Positions 52,404 through 64,000 of a stretch of 64,000 bases of DNA are shown here, one piece after another. The position numbers and the translations under genes were made by a program. The stretch covers positions 1 to 64,000 of the forward strand of contig LURN01000077.1 of assembly GCA_001628405.1 (NCBI GenBank), read 5' to 3'. The stretch comes from Candidatus Thioglobus sp. REDSEA-S12_B1 (GTDB lineage: Bacteria > Pseudomonadota > Gammaproteobacteria > PS1 > Pseudothioglobaceae). Each line of letters begins with the position of its first letter. The first letter of the stretch is position 1. Under the pieces are notes generated by a model, which searched no databases, was not told the origin of the DNA, and worked only from the letters and a program-made list of their open reading frames with translations.

Positions 52404-53540
52404 ATGAAAATAGTCATAGCTCCTGATTCTTTTAAAGAAACGCTCTCCGCATTTGAGGTTGCCAGTGCTATTGAGTCAGGTTTTCAAAATGTTTTCCCTG
52501 AGGCTGAAATCATCAAGATTCCAATCGCTGATGGTGGCGAAGGAACCGTTGATGCAATGGTCAGAGCAACTAATGGGAGTTTTGAGTTTTCAGAGGTTGA
52601 AGGACCAATGGGTGATAACACAAGAGCTAAATGGGGGATGCTTGGAAACTCAAAAACTGCTGTGATTGAAATTGCAGAAGCATGTGGCTTACATTTAGTC
52701 TCAGCAAACAAAAGAAATCCAATGGCAGCATCCAGTTATGGAGTCGGACAGCTTGTAATCGCTGCGTTAGATAAGGGAGCAAAAAAAATCATTATTGGAC
52801 TTGGCGGAAGCTCTACAAATGATGGAGGATATGGTTTTTTAAGGGCAATAGGTGTTCAGTTTTTGGATTCTAAAGGCAATGAATTGAATGGCCATTTTGA
52901 AACTTTAAGTTTGTTATCTGATATTAATCTCAGTCATATAGATAAACGAATAATGAATACATCCATCGAGATAGCCTGTGATGTTGATAATCCGCTTCTT
53001 GGACACCAAGGCGCCACTAGAGTTTTTGCAGCTCAAAAAGGAGCTAGTAATAAAATGATTGAAGAGCTAGAGTCAATCATGACTCACTATTATGAGGTCA
53101 TCTCAGGTCAGTTAAAGAGTCAGGCACGTGATCAGCCTGGGTTTGGTGCTGCTGGCGGGCTAGGCTTTGGTATTTCAGCTTTTTCAAATTCAGAGCTTAA
53201 GAGTGGAATTAGTATTGTGCTTGAGACGCTCAACTTTAATCAGTATTTATTGAATGCAGATTTAGTCATAACTGGTGAGGGTCGGATTGACAGTCAAAGC
53301 GAAAGAGGCAAGGCTCCAATTGGCGTTATTAATTATGCAAATCAATTGAACTGTAGAGTTTTCGTCATTGCAGGTTCAGTTGACGATCCAAAAGTTTTTA
53401 ATCAAAAATTCAATGTGACTAATTCGTACGGGATTGTTAATGAAAAGTTTTCAATAGAAAAGGCTTTTGAGGACCCATATGGGTGCCTTAAAAATGTCTC
53501 TCAAAAAGCTGCAGAGGATTTCAAAGCCTTAGTAACCTAG
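52404..53540 (+). CDS. Glycerate kinase (GlxK/GarK family)
   Basis: Class-I glycerate kinase of 378 residues, phosphorylating D-glycerate to a phosphoglycerate. Opening IAPDSFKETLSAFEVASAI, then PIADGGEGTVDAM, and nucleotide motif GLGGSSTNDGGYGFL, with VITGEGRIDSQSERGKAP near the end. Its 3' end overlaps by 12 bases the end of the convergent hydroxyacid dehydrogenase, a possible hydroxypyruvate-to-glycerate partner. Confidence 0.93.
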   Translation: MKIVIAPDSFKETLSAFEVASAIESGFQNVFPEAEIIKIPIADGGEGTVDAMVRATNGSFEFSEVEGPMGDNTRAKWGMLGNSKTAVIEIAEACGLHLVSANKRNPMAASSYGVGQLVIAALDKGAKKIIIGLGGSSTNDGGYGFLRAIGVQFLDSKGNELNGHFETLSLLSDINLSHIDKRIMNTSIEIACDVDNPLLGHQGATRVFAAQKGASNKMIEELESIMTHYYEVISGQLKSQARDQPGFGAAGGLGFGISAFSNSELKSGISIVLETLNFNQYLLNADLVITGEGRIDSQSERGKAPIGVINYANQLNCRVFVIAGSVDDPKVFNQKFNVTNSYGIVNEKFSIEKAFEDPYGCLKNVSQKAAEDFKALVT

Positions 53541-54557
53541 CTCAGGGTTAACGAGATTGTTCAGACTCTCATTCGCGATGTATCTTTGCATATTCATCAT
53601 CACCAAATCGAGCGTAAGCGGAATATAGGTATCGCCATCATCAGCAGAGATATGAGGCATAACCATAAGGTTAGGGGTAGCCCATAGCTCTGATTCTGAT
53701 GGAAGAGGTTCAGGGTCAAATACGTCAATGATTGCTGCCTTTACGTGGCCAGAATTCAAGTTGTCAACCAGAGCATCATAGTCCATTGTTGCAGCTCTAC
53801 CAACATTAATAATTCCGACGCCAGGCTTCATTAATGATTGACGTCTTTTATCAAGAAGGTTTGATGTTTCCTTAGTGTTCGGAATTGATATAAATATATA
53901 ATCAGCAAGTGGAAGCACTTCATCGAGTTCATTTTGAGAGACCATTTGATCAACATCATCAAGATCTTTTCCGTGACGACTAACCCCAATTACATTCATT
54001 CCAAGTAGCTTGCACTTTTGAGCTGCCGCATAACCAATATTTCCAACACCAATAACGAGTAGAGTTTTTCCCGCGATGGGAGAGGAATATAACGACTCCC
54101 AATGATTACTTTGTTGGTTTCTGACTATTTCAGGAATATGAGTGTGGAGCATCAAAACACTCATCAGCCCAAACTCTCCAGCCTTCGCCGAATGAACCCC
54201 TCTGTTATTTACGACAGATACATTTTCAGGAACCCAATCCATCGGACATAAATGCTCAACACCTGCCCCAATAATGTGTATCCACTTTAAATTAGGTGCG
54301 ATCTCCGATAGATTTTCAGTTGGAAAATCCCAGCATACTAAGACCTCAGCAGTTTTCATGGATTCATAAAAGTTATCAAGGTCCCAGTCAAAAACAGGAT
54401 CAATCTTACCTTTTAAGTCTGGAAATCTTTCAATCGCATCTCTGTATCTTTCTTCAGTGATCGCGAACACACTCTCACCTTCAATCGTAGGAGGGAATGA
54501 ATCAGGGTCGGCGTGATTGCTCTTAAAGTGGACTCTAATTTTTTTATTACTCGGCAT
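53529..54557 (-). CDS. D-2-hydroxyacid dehydrogenase, NAD(P)-dependent
   Basis: 342-residue enzyme reducing a 2-oxoacid such as glyoxylate or hydroxypyruvate. NAD fold motif VIGVGNIGYAAAQKCK; catalytic Arg in INVGRAA, Glu in FDPEPLP and His in MPHISAD. It starts 11 bases after the Rieske oxygenase on the same strand, so it is likely in its operon. Substrate not decided. Confidence 0.9.
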   Translation of the reverse strand: MPSNKKIRVHFKSNHADPDSFPPTIEGESVFAITEERYRDAIERFPDLKGKIDPVFDWDLDNFYESMKTAEVLVCWDFPTENLSEIAPNLKWIHIIGAGVEHLCPMDWVPENVSVVNNRGVHSAKAGEFGLMSVLMLHTHIPEIVRNQQSNHWESLYSSPIAGKTLLVIGVGNIGYAAAQKCKLLGMNVIGVSRHGKDLDDVDQMVSQNELDEVLPLADYIFISIPNTKETSNLLDKRRQSLMKPGVGIINVGRAATMDYDALVDNLNSGHVKAAIIDVFDPEPLPSESELWATPNLMVMPHISADDGDTYIPLTLDLVMMNMQRYIANESLNNLVNPELGY

Positions 54558-54568
54558 AGTTTTTTGGT

Positions 54569-55978
54569 CTATGAGTTCTCTCTTGATTGAATTTCAACTA
54601 GTTTATTAGAGACAATTTCGATTCTCTCTTTTTCAGTTTTTCCATCAACCTCGAATTGAATTTTAATGAATTCCTTGGCAAGTTTACTAAATAAACTATC
54701 CTCATCCTCATCAATTTTTGGGATGTTAATAACAGAATCACCGCCGTAAGTTGGTATTGGCGATTCTTTTAAATCGGTCACTTTGTAGGGTTCTTTGCCA
54801 TCAGCAAGGCTTCTGATTTGTTCTCTTATTCTTTGTCTCATCATAGCAACTCCCTGGTCACTAGCAACAAGGTTTTCATTTTTATGGATGTTAATTGGCC
54901 CCATCCCCTCGCAAGCTTCTCTATCTGCTGGGAATCTTTGACGCTCCTCATAAGGTCTATCAAAAATTTCTCCCTGTTCTATCAGCTCAGGCCCTTCTGG
55001 AGTATTGTATTCTGGTGGATCGCCACGGTCGCCAAAATTAGCCCAGGCATAGCAAATTGTTGTTTCGTCATCTATTGGCACAACCCATCTAGTAAATGAA
55101 CTTCGACCATAGAGTATTTCTTTTGTGCCATCAGCCTGGAAAGCAGATCCAGCTTGAGTAAAGTTGGGCAGTACAACCTCGTTAATTCTAAACCATACAT
55201 TATCACCGACCCTTCGTGTGTTGCATCCAAGAATCCAACTATCTCTCTCGACAAATTCAATTTGTCCCACTTCTCCAAAGCCTTCTGAGAACTGCTGCCG
55301 ACTCATATTTGAGTGTAGAAATGAGGTATGAATTGGATCGACAATAGCATCAAGTACTTGAAGCCAGTTACATTCAAATGGTGCTTTGTAGGGAACCATT
55401 TCCATGTCATCAAAATTTAAACTATCATACATTGGGAACTCAGGTTTCTGATCAATTGGGCCAAGATAGGCAAATATCAGCCCTTTAAATTCATGTGTTG
55501 GATAGGCTCCAAGTCGAACCTTCTCCTTGATAATTTCTTGTGTGTGCTCTGACTGACCAGGTACTTCTAGAATTGAACCATCAACATCAAAATGCCAACC
55601 GTGATAACAACAACTAATTCCATTAGTTTGACAAATTCCAAACTCAAGAGAGGCTTGGCGATGCGGACAGTGTTTATGAACCAAACCTAGCTGCTTACTT
55701 TTATCACGAAATAAAACTAATTCTTCACCCAAGATTTTGATTGCTACAGGGAGGTCAGCAAGTTCTGATGAGATAAAAATAGGGTGCCAATATCTTCTTA
55801 AATACTCTCCGGCTTTGGTGCCTGGACCAATGCGTGTAATTTCATCATCAACCTCTTTAGATTGCTTTATTTCATAGCCAGAAAAGCCATTTAATTCAAC
55901 CTCTATTTTATTTTTTTGATTATCCAAATGTCCAAGCCTGTTTAAAAAATAGTAAATTTTTTGCACAAATAATACCAA
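54569..55978 (-). CDS. Rieske [2Fe-2S] non-heme iron oxygenase, phthalate 4,5-dioxygenase-like
   Basis: Oxygenase component of about 469 residues from a TTG at 55978. No ATG is close and family homology starts only near residue 44, so the start is uncertain (another TTG lies at about 55927). Rieske ligands are Cys104/His106 (CPHR) and Cys123/His126 (CCYHGW). The mononuclear iron site reads DAIVDPIHTSFLH. The bulky C-terminal region with RQRIREQIRSLADGK resembles phthalate/phenoxybenzoate-type oxygenases. A reductase partner is not found in the window. It is divergent from the second Rieske gene. Confidence 0.85.
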   Translation of the reverse strand: MVLFVQKIYYFLNRLGHLDNQKNKIEVELNGFSGYEIKQSKEVDDEITRIGPGTKAGEYLRRYWHPIFISSELADLPVAIKILGEELVLFRDKSKQLGLVHKHCPHRQASLEFGICQTNGISCCYHGWHFDVDGSILEVPGQSEHTQEIIKEKVRLGAYPTHEFKGLIFAYLGPIDQKPEFPMYDSLNFDDMEMVPYKAPFECNWLQVLDAIVDPIHTSFLHSNMSRQQFSEGFGEVGQIEFVERDSWILGCNTRRVGDNVWFRINEVVLPNFTQAGSAFQADGTKEILYGRSSFTRWVVPIDDETTICYAWANFGDRGDPPEYNTPEGPELIEQGEIFDRPYEERQRFPADREACEGMGPINIHKNENLVASDQGVAMMRQRIREQIRSLADGKEPYKVTDLKESPIPTYGGDSVINIPKIDEDEDSLFSKLAKEFIKIQFEVDGKTEKERIEIVSNKLVEIQSRENS

Positions 55979-56103: not shown

Positions 56104-57204
56104 ATGGATAAATCAGTAATAAAAAATAATTTATCTTCATTTAACAAGAAGAGTGACCTAAAGCATGGACTCCCAAGCTGGGCATACACCAGCGATGAGT
56201 TTTTCGATGTTGAATGTAAAACCGTATTTACTAATAATTGGGTTTTTGCTGGATTTGTCCATGAATTCAAAGAGCCTGGGGATGCGATTCCCATTTCAGT
56301 TGCAGGGCAGCCAATCGTTCTGCTAAAAAATATTAATGGGAAAATTAACGCATTTCATAATGCTTGCTCTCATCGCTGTCTAAAGCTTATAGATGAGTCT
56401 TGTAATGTTGGTTCCATGCTTTCATGTCCCTATCATTCATGGACCTATAATTTGGATGGAGATCTTTGCGCCACCCCATTTTTTGGTGGTCGAGAGCATC
56501 AACCTGAAGGCTTTAACATGTCTGATCATGGACTTAAGACTGTAAAGACTGCAATCTGGAATGACTGGATTTTTGTTAATTTGAGTGATAATGCACAAGA
56601 TTTTGAAGAGTATGCAAGACCCTTAATTAATAATTTCAAAGATATTGATTTTCAAAACGTGACTCCTGTTGCAACTCTTGATTTTGGAGAAATAGCAACG
56701 AATTGGAAATTCCTTATGGAAAACTTTATTGAGCCTTACCATGTCCAGTTTGTTCACAGGACAACTACAAACCAGCCACTTGAAGATCACTACACAATTG
56801 TGGATGGTGTTTGCGTTGGAAGTGCAATTGACTTAGACGATGATGACAAGGTTGAAGGCAGTCTCTCGGTTAGCTCAAGATACTTGACATTATTTCCCAA
56901 TTTTATAATTGGGAGATATTTCCCTGACCAGATTGGCGTCTATCTAAATGTTCCACTGGATTCAGGCCATACCCTTCAAAAAAGAGTAATTTACACAACT
57001 GATGGTAAGACCATTTCAGATAAAAGTGTTGATGAGATTAAAAGATTATGGTGGGATGTTCACAAGGAAGATCATGCGATCTGTGAAAGAATGCAGCTTG
57101 GAAGATTGTCACCAGTATCAAAGGATGGAGGATTGTTATCCCCCAATTGGGAAGACAGCGTCAGAGCTTTTCAACAGATGATAGCTGATGCAGTAACGAA
57201 GTAA
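56104..57204 (+). CDS. Rieske non-heme iron oxygenase, quaternary-amine (GbcA/CntA-like) type
   Basis: 366-residue oxygenase alpha subunit. Rieske ligands are Cys88/His90 (CSHRC) and Cys108/His111 (CPYHSW). The mononuclear iron triad lies in NFIEPYHVQFVH, with a Glu (residue 210) where ring dioxygenases have the bridging Asp; that Glu is a feature of the quaternary-ammonium group. The C-terminus (KEDHAICERMQLGR, then FQQMIADAV) also fits that group. It likely N-demethylates or C-N cleaves a methylated amine. First of a five-gene plus-strand set. The reductase is not in the window, and substrate is not known. Confidence 0.85.
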   Translation: MDKSVIKNNLSSFNKKSDLKHGLPSWAYTSDEFFDVECKTVFTNNWVFAGFVHEFKEPGDAIPISVAGQPIVLLKNINGKINAFHNACSHRCLKLIDESCNVGSMLSCPYHSWTYNLDGDLCATPFFGGREHQPEGFNMSDHGLKTVKTAIWNDWIFVNLSDNAQDFEEYARPLINNFKDIDFQNVTPVATLDFGEIATNWKFLMENFIEPYHVQFVHRTTTNQPLEDHYTIVDGVCVGSAIDLDDDDKVEGSLSVSSRYLTLFPNFIIGRYFPDQIGVYLNVPLDSGHTLQKRVIYTTDGKTISDKSVDEIKRLWWDVHKEDHAICERMQLGRLSPVSKDGGLLSPNWEDSVRAFQQMIADAVTK

Positions 57205-57226: not shown

Positions 57227-57652
57227 ATGGCAAATGATAGTTTTAACAGTGAGTATAGGTTGGCGCATACGATGATGAGAGTGCTTGACCTGGATAAATC
57301 AATCGCATTTTATTGCGATATATTGGGTATGCAGGTTTTAAGAAAAACTGATTACCCAGGAGGACGCTATACAAATGCTTTTGTGGGCTATGGTCCAGAA
57401 AGAGAATTTCCAGCACTAGAATTAACCCATAACTGGGATCAAGAGGAGCATTATGATAAGGGTAATGGATGGGGCCATATTTGTATAGAGACACCCGATG
57501 TCTATAAAGCAGTCGAGGATCTAGAGGCGAGCGGAGCCAAGATTATTAGTCCAGCAAAACCGATGAATGCAGGAACAAGAATCCTTGCCTTCATAGAGGA
57601 TCCTGATGGTTATGTCGTTGAACTTAATGAAAAACTTGAATTAACTGAATAA
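57227..57652 (+). CDS. gloA: Glyoxalase I-like VOC-fold protein (lactoylglutathione lyase family)
   Basis: 141 residues with the classical glyoxalase I pattern: HTMMRVLDLDKSIAFYCDILGM, ALELTHNWD, GHICIETPDVYKA and DPDGYVVELNE. Metal-binding His and Glu residues are conserved in these. It may be the general methylglyoxal enzyme or, in this setting, a dedicated aldehyde-detoxifying step. A GAGGAG ribosome site precedes the start. Confidence 0.85.
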   Translation: MANDSFNSEYRLAHTMMRVLDLDKSIAFYCDILGMQVLRKTDYPGGRYTNAFVGYGPEREFPALELTHNWDQEEHYDKGNGWGHICIETPDVYKAVEDLEASGAKIISPAKPMNAGTRILAFIEDPDGYVVELNEKLELTE

Positions 57653-57658
57653 GGATAG

Positions 57659-58063
57659 ATGATGAAAGACAATAAACCAAAACTCTATAAGTTTAGTGAG
57701 ATTGAACATCGTCTCCATACCCTTGAGCCAGGTAAAAGCTACATAAAACCTTTTGTTACAAGTGCAGTAAGCGATACGATGTGCGGCGGTCTGAACTTTT
57801 TGAATGAGGTTTCTGTCCCATGGGAGCTGACCTGTGACGAGATTATTTACTGCATGGAAGGAACCTTTAGATTAACCTGTGATGGGGTTGCTTACGAGTG
57901 TAATCCTGGAGATGTTTTATATATCCCCAAAGATAATTCAATTGCTTATGAATGTGATGAAAAATGCATAATTTTTTATGCAGCTTACCCTCATGACTGG
58001 AAACAACAGGCAGGAATTACATTTGTTCCTGGAATTGATCCAGAGGACATGCCACAAAACTAG
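57659..58063 (+). CDS. Cupin-domain protein, EutQ-like
   Basis: 134 residues forming a single cupin barrel (GGGLNFL-type first motif GGLNFLNEVSVPWELTCDEIIY; second motif GDVLYIPKDNSIAYECDE). It resembles the ethanolamine-utilisation EutQ cupin family. There are several cysteines, and no standard two-His metal motif is obvious. Its position, six bases after the glyoxalase-like gene and before the Lrp regulator, suggests a role in the same amine pathway. Function unknown. Confidence 0.72.
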   Translation: MMKDNKPKLYKFSEIEHRLHTLEPGKSYIKPFVTSAVSDTMCGGLNFLNEVSVPWELTCDEIIYCMEGTFRLTCDGVAYECNPGDVLYIPKDNSIAYECDEKCIIFYAAYPHDWKQQAGITFVPGIDPEDMPQN

Positions 58064-58072
58064 AACATTATT

Positions 58073-58621
58073 ATGAGCAACTCAAGTAGTCGATTAATTA
58101 ATTTGAATCAAAATAATGATACCAATGCTGATTCGGGCACACCTTTGCCAACTAGAGACACACTCAAGGATAAATTAAACCAGCAAATCATTGATTTGCT
58201 AGAGTTGGATGGAAGATTGCCGTTTAAGGAAATTGCAAACACTCTAGATATATCAGAGGGCACTGTTAGAAATAGGGTCAATCGAATGAAGGATGCAGGA
58301 GTTCTTCAAATTAAGGCATTGGTTGATCGTTCGGCAATAAATTATTCAACTGATTCCATGCTCGGAATCAAGGTTGCGTCTAACTCGAGTCCTAGCCTAG
58401 TTGCTCAAAGGTTAGAAAGTTGTAATGAGATCGTATTTATTATGTGGGTCACCGGTCGATATGACTTGCTTGTCGAGATTGCATCCGAGAGCGACGACAC
58501 ATTAAGCAAATTTCTTGAAGAACACTGTTTTAATAATGATGATATTAAGGACGTTGAAGTGATGAAGGGTCTCGCAACATTTAAAAATCAGTTCTTGTTG
58601 AAGTCTCAAGAGAAAATTTGA
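58073..58621 (+). CDS. Lrp/AsnC-family transcriptional regulator
   Basis: 182 residues with an N-terminal winged helix-turn-helix (LLELDGRLPFKEIANTLDIS, then GTVRNRVNRM) and a C-terminal RAM effector domain (VTGRYDLLVEIASESDDTL). About 35 extra polar residues precede the HTH. It lies inside the amine cluster and is the natural candidate to bind the control region at 55979-56103 and sense an amino acid or glutamyl-amide. Confidence 0.88.
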   Translation: MSNSSSRLINLNQNNDTNADSGTPLPTRDTLKDKLNQQIIDLLELDGRLPFKEIANTLDISEGTVRNRVNRMKDAGVLQIKALVDRSAINYSTDSMLGIKVASNSSPSLVAQRLESCNEIVFIMWVTGRYDLLVEIASESDDTLSKFLEEHCFNNDDIKDVEVMKGLATFKNQFLLKSQEKI

Positions 58622-58654: not shown

Positions 58655-60073
58655 ATGAAAAAAATTTATCACACTAAGATGGAAGATGCTCTTCCCTCAA
58701 AAAAGCGTGTTGCAGAAGAAAAAGCAAGACTCGAAAAAGCCGGCGTTAAATATATTCTATCTTGCTGGATTGATATGCTTGGACTTCCGAAAACTAAACC
58801 AATCCCTTTTAGAGAGTTTGAAAACTTGTGTGCTGGTAAGGGCCCTCAATTTGCCGTTCATTCAGTTTCATTTGTGCCAGAGTTAGGGCCAAATGATTCA
58901 GATCAAATTCCTGTGCCTGACCTTGATAGTTTAGTAATTTGTCCTTGGGATAAGACATGTGTTTGGGTTTTTTCAGACTTATGGTGGGAGGGAGAGCCAT
59001 ACAATTTATGTCCTAGACAGACCCTCAAAAGAGCGATTCAAAATGCCGATGAAGCGGGTTACAAGGCTTATTGCGGTATCGAGCCAGAGTTCATTGCAAT
59101 GCGCTATGAAAACGGCCAGCCAGTCAAAGCGTTTGATGATGATCCATTACCTGGGGAGGGTCTTCGTCCAAGAAGACAGGCCTTTGGATATGATGTCGAA
59201 TACTCTATAGACTCGATGGAGTTCTTCAAAGAGCTCATTGATATTGTCAACGATCTAGGTTGGGAAATGAAGGATGTTGTTGCAGAGGGTGCTTACTCAC
59301 AATTCGAACTAGACTTCACATATACCGACGTACTCCAAATGGCAGACCGATTAGTATTCTTAAGAGTATTGCTCAAGGAAGTAGCTAAAAAATATGGAAT
59401 GTTCATCACCTTTATGCCCAAGCCAACAATTGGTGACTGGAGATCTGGTGCACACATTAATTTCAGTATGACAAGCACAAAGGATAATAAAAATATTTTT
59501 GAAGGAGAGAATGGAAAGTTCTCTGATCAAGCTTATCATGCGGTAGGTGGACTCATCAAACATGGCACTTCACTCACTGCGATAGCATGCTCGACGGTTA
59601 ATTCATACAATGGACTTGTTCCAATTGTTGGAGGATTTGAAGGAGGTGTTTACACTTGGGCGCCAACAACCATGGGCTATGGTGATAACAACCGATCATG
59701 CATGCTCAGACTACCCCAAAACCGTTTTTGTATCGAGAATCGTGCAGCTGATATGTGCATGAACCCATACTTATCTCTTGCAATGACAACTGCCTCAGTA
59801 ATAGATGGTATTAAAAATAAGATTGATCCTGGCGAGCCTTTGAATATTAATCTTTATACATTGAGTCCTGAAGAAATGGAGGCATCCAATATAAAATCAT
59901 TGCCTAGGAATCTTTTAGAGGCCATTGAGGCGCTCAATGAAGACGATTTTGCGAGAGAGGTTCTGGGAGATTCAATGCTTCTTCAATTTTTCTCTTACAA
60001 AAAAGATGAGTGGGATAGATATCATCAGGCGGTTACAGATTGGGAAGTTGAAGAGTTTTTGAGGCTCTATTAA
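58655..60073 (+). CDS. Glutamine-synthetase-like glutamate-amine ligase, first copy
   Basis: 472 residues of the glutamine synthetase fold. Metal-ligand positions can be aligned: Glu143/Glu145 (GIEPEF), Glu211, Glu218 and His267; the C-terminal Glu361/Arg363 (IENRAADMCMNPY) is present. In the H-x-H motif the second His is Asn (GAHINF), and the usual NSYKR reads NSYNG, so it is not a classical GlnA. It most likely glutamylates an amine, as GmaS, IpuC or PuuA do. An AAGGAG ribosome site lies 5 bases upstream. It is followed by a strong hairpin. Confidence 0.85.
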   Translation: MKKIYHTKMEDALPSKKRVAEEKARLEKAGVKYILSCWIDMLGLPKTKPIPFREFENLCAGKGPQFAVHSVSFVPELGPNDSDQIPVPDLDSLVICPWDKTCVWVFSDLWWEGEPYNLCPRQTLKRAIQNADEAGYKAYCGIEPEFIAMRYENGQPVKAFDDDPLPGEGLRPRRQAFGYDVEYSIDSMEFFKELIDIVNDLGWEMKDVVAEGAYSQFELDFTYTDVLQMADRLVFLRVLLKEVAKKYGMFITFMPKPTIGDWRSGAHINFSMTSTKDNKNIFEGENGKFSDQAYHAVGGLIKHGTSLTAIACSTVNSYNGLVPIVGGFEGGVYTWAPTTMGYGDNNRSCMLRLPQNRFCIENRAADMCMNPYLSLAMTTASVIDGIKNKIDPGEPLNINLYTLSPEEMEASNIKSLPRNLLEAIEALNEDDFAREVLGDSMLLQFFSYKKDEWDRYHQAVTDWEVEEFLRLY

Positions 60074-60171: not shown

Positions 60172-61065
60172 ATGTGTGGAATTGTTGGACTTTTTATTAA
60201 GAATCCTCAGCTTGAATCTCAACTTGGAGCTTTAGTTGCCCCTATGCTGAGTGAGATGACAGAGCGTGGACCTGATAGTGCTGGAATGGCAGTATATAGG
60301 GATCCAAATGAGAGTGGCTGTAAGGTCACTGTGCTAGCTCAAGAAGTCAATTTCGATTGGGAAAAGTTTCAAGAATCGGTTCATTCTAATTTTTCAGTAA
60401 TTAAGTTCTACCTGAATCAGAATCATGCAGTTCTTTCATTAGAGGCATCCCTCAATGAAGTAGAGGATTGGCTTCAATTGAATTGGAAACAATTGAGCGT
60501 TACAAGTGCTGGAAGTAATATTGAAATCTTTAAAGGGAAGGGTAATCCATCTGATTTTATCGAGCAATTTGATATTATAAACATGACAGGAACTCATGCT
60601 TTAGGGCATACAAGAATGGCTACAGAGAGCGCCATTACAACCGAGCATTCACATCCATTTTCAACAGGCCAAGATTTATGCTTGGTACACAATGGTTCAC
60701 TCTCAAATCATAACCGTCTGCGTGAGGTACTTAAACGAAATGGAGTTCAATTTAAAACCGATAACGATAGTGAGGTTGCTGCAGGTTATTTGAGTTGGCG
60801 TCTAAGTGAGGGCGATGACTTGGATGAAGCGTTGAATCATGCCATAGAGGATTTAGATGGTTTTTATACTTTTGCTATTGGCACTAAGGATGGTTTTGCA
60901 GTTATGAGAGATCCGATTGGGTGCAAACCAGCAATCATGGCAGAGACTGATGACTGGGCAGCAATGTCTTCAGAGTATCGGGCAATTGCAACATTACCAG
61001 GCGCTGAAAATGCACGCATCTGGGAGCCTGAACCAACCCAGATTTACAGTTGGAAGAGGAGTTAA
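60172..61065 (+). CDS. mgsA: N-methylglutamate synthase subunit A / GlxB-type glutamine amidotransferase
   Basis: 297 residues, a class II (Ntn) amidotransferase domain like the N-terminal part of glutamate synthase. Cys2 (MCGIVGLF) is the nucleophile; TERGPDSAGMA and GTHALGHTRMATES are the glutamine pocket. In the N-methylglutamate pathway the three glutamate-synthase domains are split into mgsA, mgsB and mgsC, in exactly this order. It carries an ATTTGGAGA ribosome site. Confidence 0.88.
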   Translation: MCGIVGLFIKNPQLESQLGALVAPMLSEMTERGPDSAGMAVYRDPNESGCKVTVLAQEVNFDWEKFQESVHSNFSVIKFYLNQNHAVLSLEASLNEVEDWLQLNWKQLSVTSAGSNIEIFKGKGNPSDFIEQFDIINMTGTHALGHTRMATESAITTEHSHPFSTGQDLCLVHNGSLSNHNRLREVLKRNGVQFKTDNDSEVAAGYLSWRLSEGDDLDEALNHAIEDLDGFYTFAIGTKDGFAVMRDPIGCKPAIMAETDDWAAMSSEYRAIATLPGAENARIWEPEPTQIYSWKRS

Positions 61066-61067
61066 AT

Positions 61068-61742
61068 ATGGCCATAATTGACCTGAATAAAAGCACGATT
61101 AGAGAGCTTAATGAAAAGTTACAAAGTGGATCTGCAGGTGATAAATTCATCGTAAATAATACTGTTGGAAAGCATGCCCTTTCTGTTGGACTCACTTCAG
61201 AAATTGATGTTGAGATTAATGGACATGTTGGATATTACTGCGCAGGAATGAATCAAGAGGCTTCTATAAAAATCAATGGAAATGCTGGTCCAGGACTTGC
61301 TGAAAATATGATGTCTGGAGAGGTTCGAGTAACAGGAAATGCATCTCAATATGCTGCTGCAACTGCTCATGGGGGGCTGCTTGTGATTGAGGGTGATGCT
61401 AGTTCCCGATGCGGAATCTCAATGAAGGGGGTCAATATCGTAGTTGGCGGTAATATTGGGCATATGAGTGCGTTCATGGCGCAGTCAGGAAGCCTGGTTG
61501 TATGCGGTGATGCAGGAGATGCTCTTGGAGACTCTATTTATGAGACCAAAATCTATGTCAGAGGAAAAGTTAAAAGCCTAGGGACAGATTGTATTGAAAA
61601 AGAAATGAAAAAAGAGCATAAAGAAGAATTGGCTAATCTTTTAAAGATGGCACAAATGAATTACAGTGTAGATGAGTTCCGTCGATATGGCTCCGCACGC
61701 AAATTATATAACTTTGACATTGACCAAGTCGGTGACTATTAA
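61068..61742 (+). CDS. mgsB: N-methylglutamate synthase subunit B / GlxC-type (GltB GXGXG domain)
   Basis: 224 residues from ATG 61068, equivalent to the C-terminal beta-helix domain of glutamate synthase. Gly-rich repeats are visible (INGNAGPGLAENMMSGEV, VVGGNIGHMSAFMAQSG, GDAGDALGDSIYETKIYV). Begins 2 bases after mgsA, so translation is coupled. Confidence 0.88.
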   Translation: MAIIDLNKSTIRELNEKLQSGSAGDKFIVNNTVGKHALSVGLTSEIDVEINGHVGYYCAGMNQEASIKINGNAGPGLAENMMSGEVRVTGNASQYAAATAHGGLLVIEGDASSRCGISMKGVNIVVGGNIGHMSAFMAQSGSLVVCGDAGDALGDSIYETKIYVRGKVKSLGTDCIEKEMKKEHKEELANLLKMAQMNYSVDEFRRYGSARKLYNFDIDQVGDY

Positions 61743-61753
61743 GGAGAAAAGAC

Positions 61754-63076
61754 ATGAGTAAAGACAATCCAACATTAATTGAGTCAGCTACTTTTCCCCG
61801 ACACGTTATAGCTGAAATTCAACGCGCAGCTAAAACTGGTATATATGATATCCGTGGTTTTGGTGCAAAAAGAGCTATCCCTACCTTTGACGATTTAGTT
61901 TTTTTAGGTGCCTCGACTTCACGCTATCCTTTGGAAGGCTATAGGGAGAAATGCACCACTGAAGTCATTCTTGGTAATCGGTTTGCGAAAAAACCAATTC
62001 ATTTAAAGACCCCAATCACGATTGCAGGAATGAGTTTTGGATCTCTCTCAGCTCAAGCTAAAGAATCCTTGGGACGGGGTGCAACGATTGCTGGAACGAG
62101 CACAACAACGGGTGATGGGGGGATGACTCCTGAAGAGAGAGGACATTCAAAAACTCTTGTCTATCAGTATCTTCCTTCTAGATACGGTATGAATCCTGAT
62201 GACTTAAGAAGAGCTGATGCAATCGAAATAGTTCTGGGTCAAGGAGCCAAGCCTGGCGGCGGCGGTATGCTTTTGGGTCAAAAGATTTCTCCGAGAGTTG
62301 CTCAAATGAGAGATTTACCAGAAGGTATTGATCAGCGTTCAGCTTGTCGCCATCCAGACTGGACAGGTCCAGATGATTTAGAAATAAAGATTCAAGAGCT
62401 CAGAGAAATCACAAATTGGGAAAAACCAATTTATGTAAAAGTTGGAGCAACCCGTGTATTTTACGATGTGACTTTGGCAGTTAAGGCGGGAGCGGACGTT
62501 GTAGTCGTTGATGGAATGCAGGGCGGAACTGCTGCTACTCAGGATGTTTTTATTGAGCATGTAGGGATTCCAACACTACCAGCAGTTCGAATGGCTGTAG
62601 AAGCTTTACAGGAAATGGATATGCATCGTAAAGTTCAATTGATTGTTTCTGGCGGCATAAGGAGTGGTGCTGATGTTGCAAAAGCTCTTGCGCTTGGTGC
62701 TGATGCGGTAGCAATTGGTACAGCAGCCTTGATAGCTTTGGGTGACCAGAGTCCTGAGTTTGATGAGGATTATAAAGCGATTGGGTCCGCAGCAGGATTT
62801 TGGGATGACTATCAACAAGGGAATGATCCTGCTGGAATTACAACACAAGACCCGGAGTTGGCAAAGCGATTAGATCCTAAATTAGGGGGTCGTCGCCTTG
62901 CTAATTATCTCAATGTGTTGACTCTGGAGCTGCAAACTTTAGCGCGAGCTTGTGGCAAAAGTCACGTGCATAATCTAGAGCCAGAAGATATGGTAGCATT
63001 AACGATGGAGGCTGCTGCAATGGCAGGAGTGCCATTAGCAGGTACCGAATGGATTCCAGGAAAGAAAGGGATTTAA
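61754..63076 (+). CDS. mgsC: N-methylglutamate synthase subunit C / GlxD-type FMN-binding glutamate synthase domain
   Basis: 440 residues with the FMN barrel of glutamate synthase: ITIAGMSFGSLSAQAKESLGRG, GQGAKPGGGGMLLG, and the phosphate site GGIRSGADVAKALALGADAVAIG. It transfers nitrogen or a methylated amine between glutamyl amide and 2-oxoglutarate-derived product, by family knowledge of Mgs. Eleven bases after mgsB. Confidence 0.9.
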   Translation: MSKDNPTLIESATFPRHVIAEIQRAAKTGIYDIRGFGAKRAIPTFDDLVFLGASTSRYPLEGYREKCTTEVILGNRFAKKPIHLKTPITIAGMSFGSLSAQAKESLGRGATIAGTSTTTGDGGMTPEERGHSKTLVYQYLPSRYGMNPDDLRRADAIEIVLGQGAKPGGGGMLLGQKISPRVAQMRDLPEGIDQRSACRHPDWTGPDDLEIKIQELREITNWEKPIYVKVGATRVFYDVTLAVKAGADVVVVDGMQGGTAATQDVFIEHVGIPTLPAVRMAVEALQEMDMHRKVQLIVSGGIRSGADVAKALALGADAVAIGTAALIALGDQSPEFDEDYKAIGSAAGFWDDYQQGNDPAGITTQDPELAKRLDPKLGGRRLANYLNVLTLELQTLARACGKSHVHNLEPEDMVALTMEAAAMAGVPLAGTEWIPGKKGI

Positions 63077-63118: not shown

Positions 63119-64000
63119 ATGGCAACTAAACTTAGTAAAGTAGCTAAAGAAAAAGGGATTGAATATTTTCTAATAAGTTTCGTCGACTTATTTGGAAGTT
63201 TGCGTTCAAAACTGGTTCCAGCCAGAGCGATTGATGATATGCAAGAAGAAGGAGCTGGTTTTGCTGGTTTTGCAGCGTGGCTTGATATGACTCCTGCACA
63301 TCCAGATATGTTCGCTATTCCTGATCCAGATAGTTTAATTCAGCTGCCATGGAAGCCCGAAGTTGGATGGCTTGCCTCCGATTTATGGATGGATGGGAAG
63401 CCGGTAGAAGCCTCACCAAGAGTAGCATTAAAGAGACAGCTAGCAGAGGCTGAAAAGCTAGGTTACCGCATGAAAACTGGTGTTGAGTGTGAATATCACT
63501 TGATTAACGATGATGGCAGTGATATTGCAGATGACAAAGACCAGCAGAGCAAACCTTGTTATGATCAACAAGCCTTGATGCGCCAATATCCAGTGATTAA
63601 GCAAATTTGTGATTGCATGATTGAGCTTGGTTGGGGGCCTTATCAAAATGACCATGAGGATGCAAACGGTCAATTTGAGATGAACTGGGATTTTGATGAC
63701 GCACTCACCACTGCAGATCGACAAGTATTTTTTAAATTTATGGTGAAATCCATAGCAGAGCTGCATGGGATGCGAGCAACATTTATGCCAAAGCCTTTTA
63801 GTCATCTGACTGGTAATGGTTGCCACTCACATCTATCAATTTGGAGTCTTGATGGTTCAAAAAATTTATTTAATGGTGATGATGATAGCAGAGGGTTAGG
63901 ATTATCATCTCTTGCTTATCAGTTCTTAGGTGGTATTATGCACAGCGCTGATAAACTAACTGCAATCTTCAATCCAACCGTCAATAGCTATAAACGCATC
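63119..64000 (+). CDS. gmaS: Gamma-glutamylmethylamide synthetase / GlnT-type glutamine synthetase, second copy, partial
   Basis: 294 codons from ATG 63119 run open to the window end. Glutamine-synthetase fold of the type III (GlnT/GmaS) class: Glu123/Glu125 (GVECEY), Glu180, Glu187, His236/His238 (GNGCHSHLS) and NSYKRI at the very end. A GGAG ribosome site lies just upstream. Position after mgsABC matches both the methylamine clusters (gmaS) and rhizobial glxBCD-glnT. GmaS is favoured by the context of a methylated-amine oxygenase, but GlnT cannot be excluded. Confidence 0.87.
   Translation, partial: MATKLSKVAKEKGIEYFLISFVDLFGSLRSKLVPARAIDDMQEEGAGFAGFAAWLDMTPAHPDMFAIPDPDSLIQLPWKPEVGWLASDLWMDGKPVEASPRVALKRQLAEAEKLGYRMKTGVECEYHLINDDGSDIADDKDQQSKPCYDQQALMRQYPVIKQICDCMIELGWGPYQNDHEDANGQFEMNWDFDDALTTADRQVFFKFMVKSIAELHGMRATFMPKPFSHLTGNGCHSHLSIWSLDGSKNLFNGDDDSRGLGLSSLAYQFLGGIMHSADKLTAIFNPTVNSYKRI

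Follow-up and report, generated by a model that had tools for sequence, protein, structure and literature searches.

Sequence evidence for a distinct family of ligase-like proteins with the glutamine synthetase fold, whose acid-side pocket is rebuilt and whose genes lie in a conserved cluster of catabolic appearance

Gene organization of the ligase locus

The stretch of DNA analyzed here (64,000 nucleotides, hereafter referred to as the window) contains a series of co-directional genes with short gaps, which extends from position 56104 to contig base 65458, beyond the end of the window. In this order, it encodes a Rieske oxygenase, a VOC protein, an EutQ-like cupin, an Lrp regulator, a glutamine synthetase (GS)-like ligase, MgsA/B/C-like proteins, GmaS, and a MetX-like α/β-hydrolase. 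The Rieske protein is a glycine-betaine-monooxygenase-like (GbcA-like) α subunit (56104-57204, plus strand). It is followed on the same strand by the glyoxalase-like VOC protein (57227-57652), which scores 140.9 bits against the lactoylglutathione lyase model (cut-off 120 bits), the cupin (57659-58063), and the Lrp/AsnC-type regulator (58073-58621). The ligase gene (58655-60073, plus strand) was identified by translation, profiles, alignments, and tree. It encodes 472 amino acids, and its ATG start codon is preceded by a good ribosome-binding site (AGAAGGAG).

Downstream of the ligase gene, again on the plus strand, profiles identified a class II glutamine amidotransferase domain protein (MgsA-like, 60172-61065), a GXGXG-domain protein (MgsB-like, 61050-61742), and a glutamate-synthase-domain FMN protein (MgsC-like, 61754-63076). 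The next gene (63119-64000, on to contig base 64432, plus strand) encodes, by profile and tree, a γ-glutamylmethylamide synthetase (GmaS)/GlnT-type ligase. The initial annotation had ascribed standard motifs to this neighbor, and HSHLS and NSYKR are indeed present. Read past the end of the window, it scores 676.5 bits against TIGR03105 (cut-off 469.6). The MetX-like hydrolase gene lies beyond the window (contig 64448-65458, plus strand), and its product contains the GxSxxG serine as well as a candidate Asp and His. Upstream of the gene series, the minus strand carries genes for a second Rieske oxygenase of the LigXa type (54569-55978, by profile) and a D-2-hydroxyacid dehydrogenase-like protein (53529-54557, 57% identity to an annotated homologue).

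A search of the window for a guanidine riboswitch or any other Rfam element found none, and the Rfam search of seven related loci found only one c-di-GMP riboswitch. Promoter and terminator scans gave about the same yield as shuffled sequence.

Active-site residues of the ligase

The translation confirmed the two motif changes and the complete metal site reported in the initial annotation. The second His of the H-x-H-x-S motif is Asn (H267-I-N269-F-S271, HINFS), the segment NSYKR reads N316-S-Y-N-G320 (NSYNG), and none of the six metal ligands is lost (E143, E145, E211, E218, H267, and E361). Further changes became apparent in the alignments: a linked Gly-to-Arg replacement at position 263, Trp in place of N264, and an insertion in the flap. 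Codons 261-271 (DWRSGAHINFS; 59435-59467, plus strand) place W262 and R263 at N264 and G265 of the Escherichia coli enzyme, H267 at the metal, and N269 at H271. Codons 316-329 (NSYNGLVPIVGGFE; 59600-59641, plus strand) show the loss of the glutamate-binding Arg (G320) and a flap insertion of three residues (VGGFEGG), and retain the GS flap glutamate as E329.

In Salmonella GSI, glutamate is contacted by E131, N264, G265, R321, and R359. Corresponding residues exist in PauA7 and a GlnA4 model; R321 corresponds to R290 in PauA7 and R325 in GlnA4 (PMC6529630). At the same position, Arg288 of RhGmaS binds glutamate, while GmaS His237 contacts adenine and Asp177 is catalytic (PMC7948447). In an archaeal GS, Gly246 and Arg303 are among the residues of the glutamate/metal site (PMC10799026). 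In our alignment, three of the five GSI contacts are replaced in the ligase, with W262, R263, and G320 at N264, G265, and R321, whereas E145 and R363 represent the retained contacts E131 and R359. Since the arginine of NSYKR binds glutamate in known enzymes, the distinctive change is on the acid side. Judged by these alignments, the acid side is rebuilt, and not simply the amine side; the predicted carboxyl-activation end of the pocket is intact, while the head-group end has lost one arginine (G320) and gained another elsewhere (R263). The initial annotation had placed the alteration in a nucleotide/amine pocket. This was mostly wrong, because Asn269 also occurs in genuine GS and the lost Arg is a glutamate ligand.

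The amine has likely changed as well, since both the ammonium-binding Asp50 of GS and the GmaS Asp177 are absent: the alignment shows A67 at the first position, as in GmaS, and V209 at the second. With both aspartates replaced and yet the flap glutamate kept, the predicted active site fits neither the GS nor the GmaS catalytic set.

Conservation and selection

Scanning 84,980 species genomes, we obtained 80 loci with relatives of the ligase, mostly 65-96% identical. The closest appear to stem from gammaproteobacteria of the SUP05/Candidatus Thioglobus type. HINFS, NSYNG, and the six metal ligands are invariant in all 77 near-full-length relatives (65-96% identical), as are N269, N319, G320, the segment D261-W262-R263-S264-G265-A266-H267, E329, R347, R352, and R363. 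In a wider set, W262, R263, N269, N319, and G320 are present in 84 of 84 distinct family sequences. Identity to the ligase is at least 63% for family members and at most 38% for other GS-like proteins.

We compared these sequences with 55 other GS-like proteins, which are not independent, being picked by similarity to the ligase or as paralogues or references; NpaA1/AtdA1, IpuC, and GlnA2-4 lie outside this direct alignment. All 55 have Arg at the position of G320, and 54 have Gly at that of R263. NSYNG is therefore a fixed trait of the family (N319 and G320 in 84/84). The His-to-Asn change by itself is common among GS-like proteins: Asn stands at the position of residue 269 in 19 of the 55, including the GS of Methanosarcina mazei, and it also occurs in relatives bearing NSYKR. 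This change is therefore of little diagnostic value, and we rejected it as a sign of new function. We also observed an apparently undescribed GS-like group (L106-L114 and L125) from several families of Gammaproteobacteria, which is related to the ligase family and combines GAHFN or GAHYN with NSYKR.

Where dS could be estimated, comparison with close relatives gave a dN/dS of about 0.02, with dS near saturation. This value supports strong purifying selection on the ligase. Together with the invariant catalytic residues, it rules out decay to a pseudogene, in agreement with the initial annotation.

Phylogenetic placement and predicted structure

With 301.8 bits against Pfam Gln-synt_C (PF00120; gathering threshold 24), the ligase belongs to the GS catalytic-domain superfamily. 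It stays below the cut-offs of the specific models: 368.2 versus 469.6 bits for TIGR03105 (type III/GmaS), 304.3 versus 429 for TIGR00653 (GS I GlnA), and 184.5 versus 650 for NF045547 (γ-glutamylputrescine synthetase). The residues agree with these scores, as V209 and G320 replace Asp177 and Arg288 of GmaS, and A67 and G320 replace Asp50 and R321 of GlnA. A phmmer comparison with the NpaA1-type GS-like enzymes for aniline and 1-naphthylamine gave 152.7 bits (fold Z 35).

In the maximum-likelihood tree, which the initial annotation had proposed as a check, the ligase family forms one clade (support 100/100, stem 1.09) outside the GlnA, PuuA, Rhodovulum GmaS, and Methylovorus GmaS clades; the neighbor at 63119 falls into the Rhodovulum GmaS clade. 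Membership of the ligase in GmaS, GlnA, or PuuA was rejected on the basis of cut-offs, residues, and this separate clade. In the tree, a plasmid-encoded Rhodococcus protein that carries NSYRR stands nearest to the family. This join is unsure, since both branches are long and the tree program flags it.

The AlphaFold2 model of the ligase (mean pLDDT 76) fits the structures of GS and of GmaS equally well (Z about 41; 8oow, Z 40.9), and thereby confirms the predicted GS fold. Of the structural comparison also suggested in the initial annotation, the match of the fold thus held, whereas residues 255-262 and 314-335, i.e. both altered loops, are unreliable in the model (pLDDT <50).

Taken together, sequence comparisons identify the ligase as a member of a distinct, selected GS-fold family with a rebuilt acid-side pocket, encoded in a conserved cluster that looks catabolic. 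The new specificity put forward in the initial annotation is supported by the separate clade, the conserved operon, and purifying selection.

Conservation of the gene neighborhood

Among 83 loci compared, the MetX-like gene accompanies the ligase in 70, the GbcA-like Rieske gene in 53, the Lrp gene in 52, the VOC gene in 40, the dehydrogenase-like gene in 37, and the cupin and LigXa-type genes in 35 each; these counts are lower bounds, since some contigs are short. The Rieske, VOC, cupin, and Lrp genes co-localize with the ligase gene in SUP05, SAR324, other gammaproteobacteria, and on roseobacter plasmids. A plasmid of Leisingera thetidis (ligase homologue WP_264214188.1) shows the order Rieske-VOC-cupin-ligase and also encodes the hydrolase and an ABC transporter. 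Outside SUP05, the MetX-like gene usually directly follows the ligase gene. An MgsA-like gene lies between the two in part of the SUP05 loci; apart from a single SAR324 locus, the MgsABC/GmaS insertion is restricted to loci of the SUP05 type. Several gammaproteobacterial loci additionally encode a GABA transaminase and succinate-semialdehyde dehydrogenase (SSADH) as well as a DAO oxidase that shares about 30% identity with PuuB. No Rieske oxygenase was found near the ligase copies L040, L057, L074, and L076. Oxidation may therefore not be an obligate next step.

Comparison with known systems

The best sequence matches of the ligase (33-35% identity) are GmaS/type III GlnT proteins (7CQL, 9QUR; TIGR03105), which share with it the GS fold, the lack of Asp50, and a marine methylated-amine setting. 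Unlike GmaS, the ligase lacks Arg288 and Asp177, possesses R263, W262, and the flap Glu, and falls below the cut-off into a clade of its own. With GS I (GlnA), it has the metal ligands, the phosphate arginines, and the equivalents of R359 and the flap Glu E327 in common, but it differs by the missing Asp50, the replacement of N264/G265/R321 by W/R/G, and the three-residue flap insertion.

NpaA1/AtdA1 (8WWU) is likewise a GS-like ligase encoded beside Rieske oxygenase genes, which points to a possibly shared pathway logic, although it is the weaker match and the partner hydrolase at our loci is MetX-like. The Puu pathway follows a similar ligase-oxidase-hydrolase logic, and the GABA transaminase, SSADH, and PuuB-like DAO oxidase genes recur at some loci of the ligase family. 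However, PuuA is only 26% identical to the ligase and keeps the equivalents of R321 and G265, and the Puu pathway has no Rieske protein and a PuuD-type hydrolase where the ligase loci encode another hydrolase. The Rhodococcus opacus pR1CP1 protein (WP_065493488.1) is 38% identical and carries MWGSGAHLN, but keeps NSYRR and the Gly; its gene is paired with one of the glutamyl-GABA-hydrolase type.

Possible function of the ligase

We propose, with just under an even chance of being right, that the ligase is an active GS-fold enzyme of its own family which serves as an ATP-dependent amide ligase in a catabolic operon. The sequence speaks for activity in that the metal site, the phosphate arginines, and the Glu-flap are all intact. 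As in known GS-like ligases, the enzyme would use ATP to convert a carboxylate to an acyl phosphate and couple it to an amine. The neighboring Rieske oxygenase(s) would then oxidize the amide, and the MetX-like protein, as a Ser-His-Asp hydrolase, would split it and release the oxidized product; this protein could instead be an acyltransferase. The overall route would be to conjugate, oxidize, and hydrolyze, with an unusual amide probably made while a nitrogen compound is broken down. Such routes are known for putrescine and for 1-naphthylamine/aniline (PMC11335346). The likeness to them concerns the possible way of working, and not membership.

With W, R, and G in place of N264, G265, and R321, the acid would be bound in another manner than known enzymes bind glutamate. 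Glutamate, bound via R263, seems to us to have a little less than an even chance of being this acid, and another, probably dicarboxylic, acid a little more. The reading that keeps glutamate sees the ligase as a γ-glutamyl amide synthetase for a new amine, in which R263 compensates for R321 as a carboxylate clamp. The characterized GS-like ligases compared use glutamate (PMC11335346, PMC7948447, PMC6529630), the Gly-to-Arg and Arg-to-Gly replacements are linked in 84 of 84 family sequences, as compensation predicts, and the amine site differs from those of GS and GmaS at A67 and V209. Nevertheless, PauA7, GlnA4, and GmaS switched their amine and still retain the R321 equivalent, and the N264-to-Trp replacement is an extra change on the acid side that speaks against an amine-only reading; we regard this explanation as possible but rather doubtful. 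More tentatively than the amide-ligase proposal as such, and short of an even chance, we suggest that the ligase does not use glutamate but recognizes a different carboxylic acid through R263 and W262, and that together with the MetX-like hydrolase and the Rieske oxygenases it defines an undescribed nitrogen-metabolite route of SUP05, SAR324, and roseobacters.

In the window and at several SUP05 loci, the gene directly precedes MgsABC and GmaS, and at one SAR324 locus it lies close to them. This arrangement would fit an isoform of GmaS or GS that ligates methylamine or ammonia and feeds the adjacent N-methylglutamate-synthase-type genes. But a full GmaS is already encoded next door, MgsABC and GmaS are absent near the ligase at most loci, and the cut-offs missed for TIGR03105, GlnA, and PuuA, the placement outside the GmaS clades, and the lack of Asp177 and Asp50 make this very improbable. 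A GS-like protein that had lost catalysis and served in sensing or as a scaffold would agree with the replaced glutamate contacts and the adjoining Lrp regulator. Against this explanation stand the conserved hydrolase partner and the invariance of the metal ligands, the phosphate arginines, the counterpart of R359, and the flap Glu, and we consider it quite unlikely. N-methylglutamate dehydrogenase takes part in the degradation of homarine, a marine compound (PMC13390433); the ligase operon might overlap with the published homarine pathway, or even be identical with it (Nat Microbiol 2026, as cited in PMC13390433).

It is usually the amine that distinguishes one family of the GS superfamily from another, whereas here residues for the acid are changed. 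This leads to a testable prediction, namely whether or not the requirement for glutamate was abandoned. Uncultured SUP05 and SAR324 bacteria commonly carry the gene, and its presence on plasmids of culturable roseobacters opens pathway and substrate to deletion and growth tests. Automatic annotation as "glutamine synthetase family protein" would mislead models of marine nitrogen use.

Additional gene clusters

Arginase-family genes flank the ligase at L053 and L057 (with HypA/HypB) and on two near-identical roseobacter plasmids. A guanidino compound as substrate is a lead only, since such genes are absent from most loci. In the marine MAG loci L053 (4588-8257) and L057 (4590-8276), two tandem arginase-family genes and HypA-/HypB-type nickel chaperone genes lie beside the Lrp and ligase genes. 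This set resembles those of nickel-dependent guanidine or metformin hydrolases; the surroundings also include genes for a PhyH dioxygenase and for a homocysteine methyltransferase. Upstream of the ligase on the roseobacter plasmid L090 (6209-14061), we found genes for a dimethylargininase-like protein, two arginase-family proteins, a carbamoylase/allantoate-amidohydrolase-type enzyme, and a betaine-type ABC transporter. A protein annotated as Xaa-Pro peptidase on this plasmid (22871-24133) scores 325 bits against the DMSP lyase DddP model, below the cut-off of 600.

The small genome from which the window derives (1.6 Mb) contains six arginase-family genes in total, four of them in tandem beside ABC transporter genes (contig C9; L149, 11648-15540). 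On the same contig, it also encodes a second GS-like protein followed by amidotransferase- and glutamate-synthase-type proteins (L148, 4406-9101), which reads as a paralogous ligase-Mgs set. Near this set are a Rieske gene, genes for betaine-type ABC transporters, and others resembling those of a sarcosine oxidase (identities partly assigned by eye).
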